A stretch of 64,000 bases of DNA from a methane-oxidizing endosymbiont of Gigantopelta aegis (lineage in GTDB: Bacteria > Pseudomonadota > Gammaproteobacteria > Methylococcales > Methylomonadaceae). Positions 47,045 to 55,549 of the stretch are shown here, piece after piece; within the stretch, counting starts at the first letter, position 1; the number at the start of each line of letters is the position of its first letter. Location of the stretch: contig NZ_JAEHGD010000001.1 in assembly GCF_016097405.1 (NCBI RefSeq), positions 962,307 to 1,026,306 on the forward strand, given 5' to 3'. The notes below the pieces were generated by a model that saw only the letters and a program-made list of their open reading frames with translations, was not told the DNA's origin and made no database searches. Made by a program: the position numbers and the translations under genes.

Positions 47045-47383
47045 ATGATTACACGTGAACTACCAAAATCCGCATGGCAAAGTTATTTTGATCAAGTTTC
47101 CAAACAACTTAAAGAGATAGAACTAGCTGAACTTGAAGTTGCCAGTCTGAAATTAGGTGACCAGATCGAAACCGAATGGGTACCATTTTATGGCATAACT
47201 TATGATCCGAAAGATGATTTAGTTGAATTTGTTTTAGAAGGCCTGGATCACTTAATCAAAAATCCCAGCCAGATATTTGTAACTGAAGATGATGGCGGCC
47301 TAAAATGCATTGACGTAATTGATGCAGAAAACAACAAGCACATCGCCAGACTCAAAGAAATCTTAAAATTACCACCCGCTTAA
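47045..47383 (+). CDS. DUF5335-like small protein
   Basis: Function unknown. The 112-residue product begins MITRELPKSAWQSYFDQVSKQ and has a central EVASLKLGDQIETEWVPFYGITYDPKDD segment and a final ARLKEIL, resembling DUF5335. It is acidic and cytoplasmic with no signal or membrane segment. It stands alone, with a GGGAGAA ribosome site, and converges on the PLD-type gene. Confidence 0.65.
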   Translation: MITRELPKSAWQSYFDQVSKQLKEIELAELEVASLKLGDQIETEWVPFYGITYDPKDDLVEFVLEGLDHLIKNPSQIFVTEDDGGLKCIDVIDAENNKHIARLKEILKLPPA

Positions 47384-47513: not shown

Positions 47514-49109
47514 CTACCAAAACACCCGTAATTCACGTTTAATTTGCTCAAATTCATACAAATAGGGCTTGGCGACCTCATGATTGGCGGCGACGACGAT
47601 AAGGTCGTGGGAAAATACCGAAGTGTTGTACCAGTTAAAACTGCCATCGATCACAATATGCTCATCAATAATGCAATATTTAGAATGAATCGGTGAATAA
47701 GGTACGGGATGATCATCTTGCCCATAGACCAGGCCAATCGGAATATTAACCTGCTTTAAACGCTGTATGGCAGGTAGCAATGGACGGTTTAACTCCTCAT
47801 CCATGCTGCGCTCCACCCCGATTTTGCCTTCCCGCGCTAAATGCCCGTTCAGCAACAGCTCGACATGAACACCGCGATGCCAAGCTACAATCAAGGCGTC
47901 GATAACGCTATCATGATGATCGCCGCGTAATTCACCGATCAGAAACAGACAAATACGGATTTGATATTTTGCACGGTGAATCTCAGCCAGAATAGCCTGA
48001 TGTGGTCGGTAGGCCTGACCATTGAGCAGAGTATGCCGACCAAAAGTGTACAACAGATTGAAATGGCTCAAAGGGTCGATACCGTATTTTTGAATCACCC
48101 CGCCCCGCTGACTTTGAAAAATATTGTCCAGCAAACGACACACACCTTCAGAATGGAAGGTCATGCCCGATTCCCAATTTGCCCACCAGCGATCGAAGGT
48201 AATATTGAATGACCCCATGATGCAATCCTGATCATTAAAAATAATGAATTTGGTATGCATATCCGGCTCGACTTCGATCAAATGATGTTTGGTCGTGCAG
48301 AACACCCCTAACAACTCGACTCGTGATTGTTTCAAACGGGCATAGGTGGCGCTGTTGGTCATGGTCATCTTGCGCCAATCGACAATGCATTGTACAAAAA
48401 CGCCCTGTTCGCTGGCGTGAATCAGGTGATTGATAAAATCATTATCGTCAATACAATCGACACTGACCTTGATGGTACAAAATCTGTCGGGCTGCTGGTG
48501 TTTGGCCTGGATGGTCTTGTCAATATGATCATGAATAAAGCGTTTGGGGTGAAAGGGATGATAGGGAAGGCCTTTGGTAAATTTAGGTACCAGGTGCAGA
48601 GATTCAAAATGCTGGTTATACCAGTCCACATCACTTTGCAACTGCCCTGCATCGACTTCATAGCTTCGGTAATGATTGGGTGTGGACCATTCCTCATTGA
48701 TATGCCGCTGCTGGGGATAGGCATCTTGTAATTGATACCAATCCATGTAAATGTATTCCTTTTCCGAAGCGATCGAATGTTCACCCATATGCACGATAAA
48801 GGCAATTTTGATGCAATTGATCCAGCCGAAATGCTTTGAATGGGGGTACACATAAAAATCACGCGTGCTGCGCTTATGCCGATCCCATTCCACGGCATAG
48901 GGGTCGGTATCGACGATATAGGTTTCACAGACGCCCTGATCCCGATACACTTTCAGAATAACTTTCAGGTTACAGGATACACCATGAAACATATCGAACT
49001 CTATTTTTCCCCAACGAATATCAAACGTATCTTTAAAATCATTGATACGCTGAAAATAGCCGCCAAGCTGACCAAAAACGGGACGGGCATAGTGTTCAGC
49101 GGTTTGCAT
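47514..49109 (-). CDS. Phospholipase D-family protein with two HKD motifs and an N-terminal beta-domain
   Basis: A 531-residue PLD-superfamily protein. The N-terminal about 130 residues look like a beta-sandwich (FDIRWGKIEFDMFHGVSC...) of a type that often binds carbohydrate. Two PLD halves follow. The second motif is canonical: His475, Lys477, Asp482 and GSFN at 489-492 (IHSKYCIID). The first (His285, Lys287; MHTKFIIFND, GSFN 299-302) has Asn292 in the Asp position with Asp293 next to it. No signal peptide is seen. It may hydrolyse or transfer a phosphodiester; substrate unknown. It follows the EEP gene by 2 bases. Confidence 0.82.
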   Translation of the reverse strand: MQTAEHYARPVFGQLGGYFQRINDFKDTFDIRWGKIEFDMFHGVSCNLKVILKVYRDQGVCETYIVDTDPYAVEWDRHKRSTRDFYVYPHSKHFGWINCIKIAFIVHMGEHSIASEKEYIYMDWYQLQDAYPQQRHINEEWSTPNHYRSYEVDAGQLQSDVDWYNQHFESLHLVPKFTKGLPYHPFHPKRFIHDHIDKTIQAKHQQPDRFCTIKVSVDCIDDNDFINHLIHASEQGVFVQCIVDWRKMTMTNSATYARLKQSRVELLGVFCTTKHHLIEVEPDMHTKFIIFNDQDCIMGSFNITFDRWWANWESGMTFHSEGVCRLLDNIFQSQRGGVIQKYGIDPLSHFNLLYTFGRHTLLNGQAYRPHQAILAEIHRAKYQIRICLFLIGELRGDHHDSVIDALIVAWHRGVHVELLLNGHLAREGKIGVERSMDEELNRPLLPAIQRLKQVNIPIGLVYGQDDHPVPYSPIHSKYCIIDEHIVIDGSFNWYNTSVFSHDLIVVAANHEVAKPYLYEFEQIKRELRVFW

Positions 49110-49111
49110 GC

Positions 49112-50683
49112 TTAATCCTCTTTCCGGGCTTTATGCTTATATTGCGTTGTCCCATGCTTGTGCACCGGATCAGATTGAATCTCCGGCTCAAAGTGGAATA
49201 AATAACCGACATGATCCGACACCCGTCCATAGTCGTGTTCGGTAAACAGCGTAGTGGCCGATGTGCATTTAAGTTCATGATCACGATTGGCAAACACAAA
49301 ATCGATTCGATAATCATCGCTCAAATAATCCCCCCAATGCACATCATCAACCCGAAAACGTTGCGCCGACAGCCCCTGCTGATTGGCTTGTAAATACTGA
49401 TCTTCATAACCATAATGCTGCACTACCAACCGATACCCTTCGGAGCCAGCTGCCACATTGAAATCACCACAGAGCAAATTGGCTTTCAGCCCTTTTGAAC
49501 GCGCTTGGCAGGCCCACTCATGCAAACGCCCGAATTGTTCAGAAAAACCGTTTTCCCACCAGCTCAAATGGACGGAGAACACCTGAATCAAGCCCATATA
49601 CGGGACTTTGAGCCAAGCTTTCACCGCTTTTCGCGCATGAATGTTGTACGGATCCTGCGATTCAGAGACATAGCGCCCTTCGGGTTCAATCAACGGATAA
49701 CGACTTAACAGCGCAACCCCTTCCCTGTATCGATCGAAACCTAGATGCGACCAGTCGTAAAACAAATGCAGCGGCGCCTTCAATCGCTGATTGATAATAT
49801 TAGCCGCATTCGATGACCAATCACCCTGCCCATCATTCCAGTTTTCGGCCACTTCCTGAAAACACACGACATCGATCTGCAGCTCATCAATCGCACGCGC
49901 AATGGTAGAAAATTTTTCATCCTGCTGTTGCTCCTGATAACAATGCAAATTGAGAATCAACAACGACAGAGGCTTGTGGCTGATAACATAATTCTGCCCG
50001 GCATTATTATCCCAAACCGTTTCCGCCTTTCCTTGACAGGCAATGCTGTACTGCACTCGGAAATGGCGACCAACCCGTAATTTGACCGTCCATACCTGAA
50101 CACCGTATTGGTTGGGATTGCGCGCATTACTGCGACATAATTTATCCCAATACAAAACGGTGCTATGGGCATCGGTTTTTCTAAGGCTTTGCCAATCATC
50201 CACAGTCCAGTGAACCTGAACCCGCTGCGGCTGCAATGCGGTATTGACCAGCACTCTCAATTCCAGACTTTTCTGGCCGGGCTGTAACTGATTCTGATGC
50301 GCAATATGGGCGATTGTACGCCCCTGACCGAGTAGAAAACCTGAATCCGCATCACTGTGATAATTTAATCCATTCCGGTTATCCCAATATTCCCGCCCCT
50401 CACATCGCAACCTGAGGCCAAATTGAATATTCCCTGGCAAGGGTTTCGTCTCCGTAGCAGAAAACAGTATTTTCGCCTGCCAACACTCAAGCCCTGTGCG
50501 CTGCTGGCGTTGAAAAACAGCCGAACAGTTCTGCCATTCCCCCGACTCACCCGCCCAAATGACATCCACCTGTTTATGAAAACCTAAGTTTTCGACTTCA
50601 ATATAAAATGTCAGCTGTTGCTGCGGCTGCCGTTTTTTACGGCTGATGATATTTTCAACGGCAAGTAATGCAATTTCGCTCAT
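49112..50683 (-). CDS. Endonuclease/exonuclease/phosphatase-family protein with two CBM21-like motifs
   Basis: A 523-residue protein. The N-terminal half has two related beta-domains, each ending in a CBM21-type carbohydrate-binding signature: YWDNRNGLNY (99-108) and VWDNNAGQNY (223-232). Aromatic residues in such motifs bind starch/glycogen. The C-terminal EEP domain (about 240-500) has a full active site: Asn245, Glu277 (CFQEV), His372 (VHLSWW), Asp407-Asn409 (GDFN), Asp461 and Asp490-His491 (SDH). It may be a phosphodiesterase or phosphatase brought to an alpha-glucan. No signal peptide. It overlaps nothing and is 34 bases after the GH57 gene. Confidence 0.8.
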   Translation of the reverse strand: MSEIALLAVENIISRKKRQPQQQLTFYIEVENLGFHKQVDVIWAGESGEWQNCSAVFQRQQRTGLECWQAKILFSATETKPLPGNIQFGLRLRCEGREYWDNRNGLNYHSDADSGFLLGQGRTIAHIAHQNQLQPGQKSLELRVLVNTALQPQRVQVHWTVDDWQSLRKTDAHSTVLYWDKLCRSNARNPNQYGVQVWTVKLRVGRHFRVQYSIACQGKAETVWDNNAGQNYVISHKPLSLLILNLHCYQEQQQDEKFSTIARAIDELQIDVVCFQEVAENWNDGQGDWSSNAANIINQRLKAPLHLFYDWSHLGFDRYREGVALLSRYPLIEPEGRYVSESQDPYNIHARKAVKAWLKVPYMGLIQVFSVHLSWWENGFSEQFGRLHEWACQARSKGLKANLLCGDFNVAAGSEGYRLVVQHYGYEDQYLQANQQGLSAQRFRVDDVHWGDYLSDDYRIDFVFANRDHELKCTSATTLFTEHDYGRVSDHVGYLFHFEPEIQSDPVHKHGTTQYKHKARKED

Positions 50684-50717
50684 ATGCGCCTCCTGCGACA
50701 GAAGCCGCGGCTACAAA

Positions 50718-52301
50718 TTATTCGTACTGATGAAAATCCAGCGTTGGAAAAATATCATCCATAATTTCCAATGCCGCGACATAGCGTGCATCCAAACGAT
50801 TCTTCTGCAAGCCATCCACTAAATAATTAAACCGCGCCAGATGATCTTCCAATTGTTTATTGGCGTATTCGCGCGTAGTACCGGCCGTTAACATAAAAGA
50901 CCAATCTGAAGCCTGCGCCAATAATAAAGACCGTAATGCCTGATTGACAGCTCGCTCTTGCAAATCGGTCAATTGCACCGTTTTCAAATCCTTGATCAAG
51001 TTTTCCAGCGTCTCGGCGGCTTGATGCAAACACGGATAAATCCAATCATTGCTATCGTTTATCCAATACCGATAGGCGCCTTGATGCCCCCAGCTTGAAT
51101 CGGCCGGCCGCAGTGTTTGCAAGGTATCGTGCGTTGCCAGATAATCCTCACCGGACTGCAATTGCAGTGCATATTTTCCAGATGCCGCCAAACGCAAAAC
51201 CTGCTCTAGCCATAGCGGGCCTTCATACCACCAATGCCCAAACAATTCGGCATCAAACGGTGCCACCATCATCGGTGCTTGTCCCAATTGTTGACTTAAC
51301 CGGGTAATGTGCTGTTGCCGCTGCCACAAAAAATCTTCGGCGTGCTGCCGCGCTTTTTTAATCGCTCGCTCTGGATCATACCACTGTTTGGCCTCGGTAT
51401 TGCCAGTAATGCGATGATATTTAAGCCCTATATGGCCTGGAATCCTATCTTTGGAAATAAACTGCGCCAAATAATCCGGCGCTAATTCATAGCCCATATC
51501 GCGATGAAATTCCCGATAATCGGCATCCCCCGGATAACCTTCATCTGCACTCCACACCTGCCGCGAACACAATGGATCGCGTGCAAACGCCGCCACGCCG
51601 TTGCCACAATCCACTGGCGCATAAACACCATTCAGTGGTTTTTCATCCGCACCTTCCAGCGCATGGCTATCGACAAAAAAATACCGGACGCCGTATTCTG
51701 CTAACACCTGTTCAAGCCCGGCATAAAAACCGCATTCCGGTAACCAAAAGCCATCAGGCTTAAAATCAAATACCTGTTGAAAAGTCTCAAGCCCAATCCG
51801 AACCTGATTGCGGACTGCCGACGCATTCTGTCGCAACAAAGGCAAAAAACCATGCGTTGCCGCCGTCGTGATAAGACAGAGGCCACCACCTTGCTGATGA
51901 CGCCTGAATTGCGCCAGAATATCACCCGCACAGGCATGATACAGCTGACTGAGCTGTTGTAATTGCTGTCGATAATGCAGCGCGATACGCTGAACCTCCG
52001 GCTGCCCCAACGTGCGCCTGATCTCAGCCTCGATCAATTGCTGTCTCGCCAATAAATAACGCCGATAACGCTGCTTCAATAAATCGCTCTGCAACAAAGT
52101 CATCAGCGTAGGCGATAAAGAAAGCGTCAAACGATATGCAACACCATCGGCCTGCAAACGATCCAACATCGCCAGAAGTGGCAAATAACATTCGGTTATC
52201 GCCTCGAACAACCACGCTTCTTCCAGAAAATCTTCGTATTCCGGATGATGCACATAAGGCAAATGCGCATGCAACACAATATTCAAACCCGCCAACGCCA
52301 T
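50718..52301 (-). CDS. GH57 family 1,4-alpha-glucan branching-type enzyme
   Basis: GH57 DUF1957-type enzymes form alpha-1,6 branches in glycogen. The 527 residues begin with the (beta/alpha)7 barrel motif LNIVLHAHLPYVHHPEYEDF. The nucleophile is probably Glu189 (GFWLPECGFYAG) and the acid/base Asp350 (APFDAELFGHWWYEGP), positions close to Thermococcus branching enzyme (Glu183, Asp354). A C-terminal helical domain follows (RALRSLLLAQASDWSFML). It follows the DUF4912-like gene by 2 bases and heads the glucan operon with it. Confidence 0.88.
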   Translation of the reverse strand: MALAGLNIVLHAHLPYVHHPEYEDFLEEAWLFEAITECYLPLLAMLDRLQADGVAYRLTLSLSPTLMTLLQSDLLKQRYRRYLLARQQLIEAEIRRTLGQPEVQRIALHYRQQLQQLSQLYHACAGDILAQFRRHQQGGGLCLITTAATHGFLPLLRQNASAVRNQVRIGLETFQQVFDFKPDGFWLPECGFYAGLEQVLAEYGVRYFFVDSHALEGADEKPLNGVYAPVDCGNGVAAFARDPLCSRQVWSADEGYPGDADYREFHRDMGYELAPDYLAQFISKDRIPGHIGLKYHRITGNTEAKQWYDPERAIKKARQHAEDFLWQRQQHITRLSQQLGQAPMMVAPFDAELFGHWWYEGPLWLEQVLRLAASGKYALQLQSGEDYLATHDTLQTLRPADSSWGHQGAYRYWINDSNDWIYPCLHQAAETLENLIKDLKTVQLTDLQERAVNQALRSLLLAQASDWSFMLTAGTTREYANKQLEDHLARFNYLVDGLQKNRLDARYVAALEIMDDIFPTLDFHQYE

Positions 52302-52303
52302 CG

Positions 52304-52915
52304 TTATAATCCTTGCCCTGAATGATTGAGGGTTGTCATCGTATCACCCTGCGCTTCCCGTTGCCCGTCCAGGGTCTGCGCAAAACTCGACGCAACACAA
52401 GTCGATTCCAACACAGCACAAAATTGATGTCGCGCATCAAAGCAACCGATTGAGACACGATGATGGCTATTTTGAAGCGATGACGGTAACGGAATAATTG
52501 TCTTTTTTGACTGACAATCATTAATTTCCGGGCGAAAAAAAACCTCTACCTGCTCCGTCGTACCGGCTGAAGACAACTTAATCACCGGCACCTTATCCGC
52601 AACGACTTCCGGTAAACGCCAATACACATGCAAATGCCCAGCATCGACCGGCATCACGACACAGACGGGCTCTGCATGATTGACTCGCTGAGTAATGGAG
52701 CGATACTGGCGCCGGATCGTTCGACTGACATCGCGTAACATTTGTGCTGAAACAGCCTGCTGGGAACGCTGCATGCGCGGCGCAAAATCACGCGACACAG
52801 CCTGGCTGATTTCAACAATAGCCTCAGCCGTCAATACAAGCCGCTTATCAAATCTGGACTGAAACAGCCTCAACTCCTGTTGTGTCGTACGCACTCTGAC
52901 CTGCGCCCTATTCAA
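52304..52915 (-). CDS. DUF4912-like protein, partner of the GH57 enzyme
   Basis: Function unknown. The 203-residue protein has a basic, helical N-terminus (MNRAQVRVRTTQQEL..., about 1-75) and a beta-rich C-terminal half with LHVYWRLPEVVAD, similar to the FVYWE motif of DUF4912, which is often found beside GH57 genes. The final 30 residues are polar. No signal peptide. It is first in the operon; a 250-base gap without genes lies upstream and should hold the promoter. Confidence 0.55.
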   Translation of the reverse strand: MNRAQVRVRTTQQELRLFQSRFDKRLVLTAEAIVEISQAVSRDFAPRMQRSQQAVSAQMLRDVSRTIRRQYRSITQRVNHAEPVCVVMPVDAGHLHVYWRLPEVVADKVPVIKLSSAGTTEQVEVFFRPEINDCQSKKTIIPLPSSLQNSHHRVSIGCFDARHQFCAVLESTCVASSFAQTLDGQREAQGDTMTTLNHSGQGL

Positions 52916-53163: not shown

Positions 53164-53700
53164 TCAACCCATCACCAGATATTCATCTTTCAAACTAACA
53201 TAATGTACAGCTGAATAATCCAGAAAACGCTTTTCTTCGTCGGTTAAGGCTCTCGCCTGCCGTGCCGGTGCCCCCACATAAAGATAACCACTCTCCAAAC
53301 GCTTACCCGGCGGCACCAGCGCACCAGCGCCCAGCATGACGTAATCTTCCAATACCGCGCCATCCAGGATATTAGCGCCAATCCCAATCAGACAAAAGTC
53401 ACCCACGGTGCAGGCATGCACCACCGCCTTATGGCCGATGGTCACGCTGTTTCCAATGGTCAATGGATAGCTTTTACCCCCGGTAAATTCGCTGGCATGG
53501 GAGACATGCAAGACTGCACCATCCTGTATATTAGTCTTCTCGCCCACAGTAATTTTTTCGACATCGCCACGCAATACCGCCATTGGCCAAACCGAGACAT
53601 CATCGGCTAAATGAACATCGCCAATCACAACAGCGCTGTCGTCAATAAATACCCGTTGACCCGTTTTCGGTTCACAATTTTTAAATGTTCTTATCGTCAC
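53164..53700 (-). CDS. Gamma carbonic anhydrase family protein
   Basis: A left-handed beta-helix (hexapeptide) protein of 178 residues. The three zinc-ligand histidines are in HVSHASEF and IGHKAVVHACTV. Related YrdA/CamH proteins interconvert CO2 and bicarbonate, though activity varies. Bicarbonate supply for PEP carboxylase elsewhere in the window is a reasonable use but unproven. It is divergent from the SPFH gene. Confidence 0.9.
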   Translation of the reverse strand: MTIRTFKNCEPKTGQRVFIDDSAVVIGDVHLADDVSVWPMAVLRGDVEKITVGEKTNIQDGAVLHVSHASEFTGGKSYPLTIGNSVTIGHKAVVHACTVGDFCLIGIGANILDGAVLEDYVMLGAGALVPPGKRLESGYLYVGAPARQARALTDEEKRFLDYSAVHYVSLKDEYLVMG

Positions 53701-53891: not shown

Positions 53892-55549
53892 CGCTAAATG
53901 TCAACCAACCTGTCGCATTTTTTGCAATAATTTACGAAATGAATTTTATTAAGCTGCTTGACATTCTGTTGTGTTGAAATTTTCCTTATCCGGATTAAGA
54001 TAAACATGGCCAATGGGCGTTAAATTTCGTGTTTGTCGTCCATTCCATCGCTCTGGATTGTCTCTTTTTGCTTGCTCGATGACTCGTTTTCTTTTTTCGA
54101 GTACGGCGCTGTCTAAGCCGTTATGGCGTTGGTTGGGTGTTACAAACTTGAGCGCACTGTGTTGATGTTCATTGTTGAACCAACAAACGAAAGCTTCAAC
54201 CCAGTTCCTGGCTTCGCTTAATGTTTTAAAAGGGTTTTCTGGAAAGGTATGATGATATTTGACTGTTTTAAATAACGATTCTGAATAAGGATTATCATTA
54301 CTGACACGAGGTCTGCTGAACGACGTGGCAATGTCTAAATCGACCAATTTGGCCCTTAATGTTGCGCCTTTCATCGGACTGCCGTTGTCAGAATGTATCA
54401 CCAATTGCTTTTTGTCGATGTTTTCCCGGCGAGCGATATCTTCGATCAAATCAGCAGCGTGTGCGCTTGATTCGGCATCATGAACTTGCCAGCCTACGAT
54501 TTTCCGACTATAGATGTCCATCACCATGTAGAGGTAAAAATACTGCCCTTTGACGGGGCTTAATAAATACGTAATATCCCACGAGTAGATTTGATTGGCC
54601 TGTGTGGCTTTGAGTGACTGCGGTTTATTATGCTGACCTGCGGCTCCTTTAGCTCTGTGCTTAAGCTGGTTGTGGGCTTTCATGACACGATAAAAGGTTG
54701 ATTCTGATGCCCAAATCCAATAACCTCGGAACGATTTGATGCGGCGTTAAAGCGCTGTATTCCGGTTTATTAATCACGGTGATGATTTCTTGCTTGATGG
54801 CCTCGGATAATTGATTGTGCACAGGCGCTGTATTGTGCAGTCGTAGGTCTTCTGAGAGTCCTTCTCCCCGGTTCCAACGCTGATAGGTTCGAGCTGATAT
54901 ACCCACCAGTTCACAGGCTAATTTCTGCCGCGCTCCATTGTCAACGGCTTCATCAATGAGTGCGCTGTAGTGTTGGCGATCTGAGTAGGCGATTAATCGG
55001 CCGCCTTTTCCCCCAGATCGCTTGGCACTTTTTTGATAACACCAGTAAAGCCGCTGTTTCTGATAACGCTTTCTCTTTGCGGTTTAGCTCCTTATGCAAA
55101 CGCTTGTTTTCTTGTTTGAGTTTTGTTTGCGCCTGTTTATATACGGATTCTGTTGATTTAGATTCTGACAAAAATTCCGCTTTCCAGGTATTTAGATGAT
55201 GTAAGTAGATGCCTTGTTCACGACAATAGGCGCTAGCCTGATCATCGGTGAGATGATGACAATGAACAATGGCTTCAAAACGTTCTACTGTATTCCAATC
55301 TTGAGGGCTTTTTTCTTTTGACATGTTTGACTCTGTTTTTTCGAGTTGATTTTTCTTAGCTAACCGAATCCATTTTTGAAGTGTGGAGTAACCCACACCT
55401 AAAGTAACTGCAATTTGCTTTAGCGATTGTTCTGGTCTTCTGGATAATGCTTTTTCTACTGATTGTACTTTAAATTCTTGGCTAAATACGCTCATTTTTG
55501 TCTCCTGATTTAAAATTTCCTAGGCGACAGGTATGTTGACATAGGGGGG
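53892..55549 (-). mobile_element. IS3-family element, copy B
   Basis: A 1658-base copy in inverse orientation to copy A, with the same ends and GAC duplications (53889-53891, 55550-55552). It is 11 bases shorter than copy A, fully explained by an 11-base internal deletion, one extra A and one fewer T. Confidence 0.93.
53949..55495 (-). pseudogene. IS3-family transposase, broken by an extra base and an 11-base deletion (copy B)
   Basis: Same protein as copy A. Two lesions: a six-T run (55029-55034; A6 on the coding strand against A5 in copy A) shifts the frame after ALLVLSK, and an 11-base deletion near 54710 removes part of LDLGCYLASES. The 3' part, from MKAHNQLKHRAKG through the integrase Asp-Asp-Glu core to TECQAA, is intact, with the four-T run that copy A lacks. 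Neither copy is functional, but together they give the ancestral protein of about 518 residues. Confidence 0.9.

Follow-up and report, generated by a model that had tools for sequence, protein, structure and literature searches.

We analysed a four-gene cluster in a 64,000-nucleotide stretch of DNA (the window) from a methane-oxidizing endosymbiont of Gigantopelta aegis (contig NZ_JAEHGD010000001.1, positions 962,307 to 1,026,306), and found that two of its genes form a conserved pair. One encodes a protein with two carbohydrate-binding modules of family 21 (CBM21) that keep core binding residues, followed by an endonuclease/exonuclease/phosphatase (EEP) domain. The other encodes a phospholipase D-type (PLD) protein. 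The EEP active site is complete and the PLD protein has two HxK motifs, the two genes co-occur almost perfectly, they are linked to glycogen genes, and the EEP domain is related to genes placed like mapP. We consider it about an even chance that the EEP protein is a glycogen-anchored glucan-6-phosphate phosphatase with a PLD partner, and that the pair edits phosphate on intracellular glycogen. Here we infer the location, the polymer as substrate, the C6 position, and the direction and role of the PLD reaction.

An earlier sequence-only reading of this DNA had pointed out two CBM21-like motifs (WDNxxGxNY, at residues 100 and 224 of the EEP protein), and their CBM21 identity was borne out by profile scores and binding-site residues. 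The Pfam profile CBM_21 (PF03370) matched two stretches with 65.9 bits (cut-off 28.9), and in the genome search the two stretches passed the cut-off individually, at 37.1 and 36.3 bits. The PDB was searched with a profile built from 48 EEP proteins, and residue conservation was counted in 48 sequences. The PDB matches included PPP1R3B, PPP1R3C, PPP1R3A and the starch-binding domain of Rhizopus glucoamylase, with E values of 2.6e-7 to 5.2e-6 for module 2 against PPP1R3B/3C and 7.8e-5 for module 1 against PPP1R3A.

The sugar contacts reported for PTG are N177, F180, E181, K182, Y203 and D214 at site II and R187, W193, Y196, C235, W246, N248 and N253 at site I (according to PMC9582199). Those reported for the Rhizopus CBM21 are N29, Y32, K34, F58, Y67 and E68 at site II and W47, N50, Y83, Y94, N96 and N101 at site I (according to PMC3398936). 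By our own mapping, made by sequence alignment, module 1 carries N32, F35, K37, F57 and E66 at the positions of Rhizopus N29, Y32, K34, F58 and E68 (site II), and W50, W100, N102 and N107 at those of W47, Y94, N96 and N101 (site I). At site II, N32 is kept in 42/48 sequences, F or Y at position 35 in 40/48, and K37, an F, Y, W or H at position 57, and E66 in 48/48 each; at site I the counts are 46/48 (W50), 43/48 (W100), 45/48 (N102) and 45/48 (N107). Module 1 has no equivalents of Rhizopus Y67, N50 and Y83 or of PTG E181, R187 and Y196, the E181 position being H in the window and D in 29 of the 48 sequences. Module 2 keeps the core of site I (W164 48/48, W224 44/48, N226 42/48, N231 45/48), and the site II pattern is lost. 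This suggests that module 1 retains the core residues of both starch-binding sites and module 2 those of site I only, and both are predicted to bind. Another bacterial tandem CBM21 was seen on a plasmid of Eleftheria terrae (L094 7929-8699), where a 256 aa protein matches CBM21 in two stretches (95 bits) and passes the cut-off for no other domain; its gene adjoins DUF3300/DUF2950 genes.

The catalytic part of the EEP protein matched Exo_endo_phos (PF03372) with 61.6 bits (cut-off 24.5). The complete nuclease/phosphatase active site that had been claimed for it was found, with N245, E277, H372, D407, N409, D461, D490 and H491 kept in 48/48 sequences, and the protein was modelled with a pLDDT of 86. 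Outside its nearest relative, a 90% identical protein of an uncultured Methylococcaceae bacterium, the EEP protein is 49-59% identical to its homologues. The nearest PDB entry to the EEP profile was 3teb (function unassigned; E 1.7e-31), and the next EEP entry had an E value of 0.017.

MapP of Enterococcus faecalis, a member of the EEP family, is reported to be a maltose 6'-phosphate phosphatase, and to act on a phosphate of an alpha-1,4-glucoside (PMC3737437). For comparison we took five genes judged MapP-like from their gene order, MapP's own sequence not being compared. These single-domain EEP genes, from five genera, lie directly downstream of phosphotransferase system (PTS) sugar transporter (IIBC) genes and adjoin GH65, pgmB and aldose epimerase genes, the placement published for mapP. 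The window's EEP family and this group are related over the whole domain (hhalign E 1.1e-40, 30% identity), have H313, E321, G322, W375 and other residues in common, and both find 3teb as their only strong EEP match in PDB. Since 3teb groups with the PTS-linked genes (E 7e-81 and 1.4e-36), a sugar phosphatase of the MapP type is its probable identity. The MapP-like proteins are single-domain and encoded beside sugar uptake genes, whereas the window's EEP protein carries two CBM21 modules and is encoded beside a PLD partner and glycogen genes; the gene upstream of it is not a PTS gene but that of a glycoside hydrolase family 57 (GH57) protein. The mannosyl-6-phosphatase BT3783 (PDB 4c1r) was not reached by the EEP profile at E 10 in the PDB search; its fold Z score was tied with those of TDP2 and others, and its substrate is a mannoside, not an alpha-glucan.

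Gene order was compared in 47 loci outside the window (50 minus L032, L034 and L035, which lie on the same contigs as others), with genes named by cluster and cluster representatives scanned. Where EEP and PLD genes stood in one locus, they were on the same strand in 42/42 cases, with gaps of 1-245 bases (median 62.5); three of these PLD genes are cut by contig ends. The PLD gene was outside the stretch in the other 5/47 loci. L050, L073 and L079 break off at the EEP end or close to it; in L080, EEP is followed by other open reading frames (ORFs) and PLD is on a different contig; the fifth is L038. In G012, from which L079 comes, another contig carries PLD about 3 kb behind a 47-residue end piece of EEP, so the two genes are not always adjacent in that genus. 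The GH57 gene was directly upstream of EEP in 20/47 loci, and another 2 had it within 4 kb (22 in total). In nine other loci its place next to EEP was taken by glgB-glgA; TIGR02095 confirmed glgA in 8 of these, and glgB was identified by a scan or family search in L035/L062 and L081 and by cluster elsewhere. None of the named glycogen genes was present in 16/47 loci, where 151 of the 181 ORFs were outside the named clusters. The conserved unit is thus the EEP-PLD pair, which GH57 accompanies in roughly every second locus. The expected adjacency of all four genes in related genomes held for EEP and PLD, which are nearly always together, but the GH57 and DUF4912-like genes are often absent and are sometimes replaced by glgB-glgA.

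Other glycogen genes were found around the pair. A glgA gene is convergent behind PLD in L048, L052, L054, L056 and L065. The large ORF upstream of the DUF4912-like gene is the debranching enzyme GlgX in all three loci scanned; its gene is divergent in L043 and L045, whereas L052 has it on the same strand. GlgX is also encoded behind PLD in L060 and L065. The genes glgC and malQ and a second, different GH57 gene belong to a Methylobacter-type glycogen cluster. This second GH57 protein (563 aa; L035 440-2131, minus strand) is encoded beside glgC, and its cluster was also seen in L048, L051, L054, L056, L057, L062, L063, L064 and L081, where it mostly separates glgC from malQ. The window's genome has its glgA and glgB 0.7 Mb away, and the GH57 gene is therefore the visible tie to glycogen there.

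We surveyed 101 genomes, 61 of the window's family (its own included) and 40 of other families of the order. A full-length EEP gene was found in 39/101 and PLD in 38/101, all 38 of which also carry EEP; in the single EEP-only genome (G036), EEP ends about 107 bases from the contig end. Within the family, glgA is present in each of the 39 genomes that carry EEP, and the 4 that lack glgA also have no EEP (Fisher 0.014, relatedness ignored; two of these four are less than 80% complete). The pair was absent from 40/40 genomes of the other families, although 24 of them have glgA. It recurs in Accumulibacter (3/150 genomes of that family), which forms one clade in both gene trees, so a transfer of the pair to Accumulibacter would be the simple reading. 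Cultured methanotrophs, Methylobacter luteus (L033) among them, also carry the pair, as does a methanotrophic symbiont of Bathymodiolus (L037). Deep-sea mussel symbionts are reported to transcribe a 'maltose 6-phosphate phosphatase' massively (PMC13401447), which might be the CBM21-EEP gene.

The PLD protein matched PLDc_2 (PF13091) over two stretches with 126.3 bits (cut-off 27). The two HKD motifs noted earlier are present and both HxK pairs are invariant (40/40), but only the second motif is complete, the first reading HxKx4N instead of HxKx4D in 40/40 sequences. In the structure model (pLDDT 73) the PLD fold begins at about residue 155 (catalytic domain about 160-531). Residues 1-155 are beta-rich, and no relative of them was detected, the fold of this domain not having been searched alone; the carbohydrate-binding fold that had been supposed for them is unsupported. 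The PLD protein is more conserved than EEP, at 69-84% identity beyond its 96% nearest relative. Its fold matches were vaccinia F13, PLD3/4, phosphatidylserine synthase, PPK1, NucT and Nuc, and nothing here distinguishes a hydrolase from a transferase. With DISARM DrmC, NucT and cardiolipin synthase it has the PLD fold and the HxK motifs in common. However, it falls far below their equivalog cut-offs (36.8 vs 133 bits for DrmC in NCBIfam, against a PADLOC DrmC match of E 5.4e-13 in a run of the four proteins only), has an extra N-terminal domain, and stands in another neighbourhood.

Taken together, these data suggest a possible order of events. The EEP protein would dock on alpha-1,4-glucan chains through its two CBM21 modules, and its MapP-like domain, presumably metal-dependent, would strip phosphate monoesters, most likely at C6. 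On the same chains, the two-histidine site of the PLD protein would most likely cut phosphodiesters (such as glucose-1-phosphate-type or other caps) to monoesters, which the EEP protein would then remove; in a bolder variant, PLD might instead make the phosphodiesters. Two points speak for C6: it is the position in the names of MapP and of the mannosyl phosphatase, and it is the one that branching enzymes must use. Removal of C6 phosphate would keep the chains usable by the GH57, GlgB, GlgX and GlgA enzymes encoded alongside. Branching enzymes, from bacterial to human, are reported to bind phosphorylated glucan less, in an inverse linear relation to phosphate (PMC13011383). The same source describes the origin of glycogen phosphate as unknown, and counts bacteria among the laforin-less organisms for which it is an open question whether their glycogen is phosphorylated.

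We also propose, tentatively and at somewhat less than an even chance, that the glycogen of type I methanotrophs and of some Accumulibacter is phosphorylated, with EEP-PLD as a dedicated phosphate-editing system in which PLD cleaves or writes phosphodiesters. The earlier interpretation was borne out in part, and its guess of a phosphorylated or phosphodiester-linked alpha-glucan is supported by the CBM21 profile and site residues, the glycogen neighbourhoods and the MapP-like kinship of EEP. Phosphate editing on glycogen is weakest at three points: phosphate on this glycogen is still presumed, the link to MapP is indirect, and the PLD chemistry could be hydrolysis or transfer. Six EEP genomes showed no GWD-sized dikinase. 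The strongest PPDK_N match in the window's genome (G000:C2:1110456-1111450, outside the window) appears split into two frames with a stop, which would be an assembly error or a broken gene; the gene is undisrupted in 4/5 relatives examined, and the fifth has no match.

Three other explanations were weighed against phosphate editing. An unlikely one is that the PLD protein adds phosphate or glucosyl-phosphate to glycogen and the EEP protein removes it. Phosphatidylserine synthase and PPK1, both among the fold matches, transfer through a phosphohistidine, but the matches to vaccinia F13 and to PLD3, whose title calls it a nucleic-acid exonuclease, score higher, the PP_kinase_C match spans 59 residues only, and nothing shows the direction of the reaction. 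It is also improbable, if not much more so, that the substrates of EEP are phospho-sugars of small, soluble kinds (maltodextrin 6-phosphates or other sugar phosphates) and that CBM21 only stores or regulates it on glycogen. The disaccharide phosphate on which MapP is reported to act (PMC3737437) fits such a role. So do the single-domain EEP paralogues of 17 EEP-bearing relatives, about 36-39% identical to the window's EEP domain, of which eight loci (L084-L091) have no PLD or GH57-branching homologue. For a soluble substrate, however, two CBM21 modules with conserved sites would be costly, and there is no PTS gene among the identified neighbours, many ORFs there being unidentified. Very improbable is a glycogen-bound nuclease and phospholipase for defence or granule housekeeping, which draws on nucleases within both folds (TDP2 and nocturnin among the EEP fold matches) and on the DrmC match, and which is weakened by the failed DrmC cut-off, the high conservation of PLD, the linkage to glycogen genes and, since EEP groups by sequence with putative sugar-phosphate phosphatases, by the MapP-like kinship.

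The positions of the four ORFs agree with the layout first described, with gaps of 2, 34 and 2 bases in the order DUF4912-like, GH57, EEP and PLD (Table 1). Their conservation in dozens of relatives indicates that they are not chance ORFs. The window's genome has 2.93 Mb, and its relatives are Methylococcaceae/Methylococcales.

Table 1. Positions of the genes and domains discussed (window coordinates, or locus coordinates where a locus is named)
Feature	Position	Strand	Description
DUF4912-like gene	52304..52915	minus	203 aa, TTG start
GH57 branching-type enzyme gene	50718..52301	minus	527 aa, with BE_C domain
EEP gene	49112..50683	minus	523 aa, two tandem CBM21, then EEP catalytic domain
CBM21-1	50330..50683	minus	about residues 1-118; core residues of sites I and II
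CBM21-2	49976..50302	minus	about residues 128-236; site I core kept, site II pattern lost
EEP catalytic domain	49184..49969	minus	residues 239-500, 3teb/MapP-like type
PLD gene	47514..49109	minus	531 aa, N-terminal beta-rich domain and PLD catalytic domain
MapP-like EEP genes	L092 8064-8888; L093 8064-8888; L095 7001-7789; L096 7001-7807; L097 7001-7786		generic 'endonuclease/exonuclease/phosphatase' genes

The GH57 protein carries the catalytic Glu189 (WLPECGF) and Asp350 (APFDAE) first proposed for it, which align with the GH57 structure 2b5d, and it passed the Pfam cut-offs for Glyco_hydro_57 (108 bits, cut-off 21.2) and BE_C (97.3 bits, cut-off 25). These domains suggest a branching-type enzyme. 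Since it missed both matched NCBIfam branching-enzyme equivalog cut-offs (318 vs 1000 and 317 vs 920 bits), and its best PDB match, 2b5d (phmmer E 8.3e-140), is named an alpha-amylase, branching and hydrolysis are both possible. The DUF4912-like label did not hold for the window protein itself (PF16258, 16.4 bits against a cut-off of 29.4), and stands only through its homologue in L037 (70.3 bits), to which it is tied by single-linkage clustering. The start of this gene is uncertain: besides the TTG, there is an in-frame GTG at codon 8 and a TTG at codon 15. Around the cluster, a DUF5335 protein (122 bits) is encoded at 47045-47383 (+), convergent with the end of the PLD gene. A carbonic-anhydrase-like gene (53164-53700) precedes the operon, and upstream of it are transposase-like ORFs at 53949-54683, with an rve integrase core, and 54953-55495 (minus).

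The EEP protein resembles laforin and SEX4, a plant glucan phosphatase, in its proposed job and its plan, a glucan-binding module with a phosphatase domain. Laforin and SEX4 have a dual-specificity phosphatase fold with CBM20/48 modules, whereas the window protein is bacterial and has an EEP fold with CBM21; Pfam found EEP and no dual-specificity phosphatase domain in it. On the best reading, it would be a laforin analogue with an unrelated fold. With PPP1R3A/B/C it has the CBM21 domain in common, but there CBM21 recruits a separate protein phosphatase, and here it is fused to the EEP enzyme. Among the papers listed by our literature searches, none described a bacterial glucan phosphatase, or in bacteria the function proposed here. 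CBM21-EEP plus PLD is a new combination of known domain kinds.

Glycogen phosphate is central to Lafora disease. If our reading is true, it would assign a role to a gene with the generic label 'endonuclease/exonuclease/phosphatase' and to a highly conserved PLD protein, and would reveal a bacterial counterpart of laforin built on the EEP fold. The presence of intact active sites and glucan-binding modules in cultured methanotrophs makes the question of bacterial glycogen phosphate testable.

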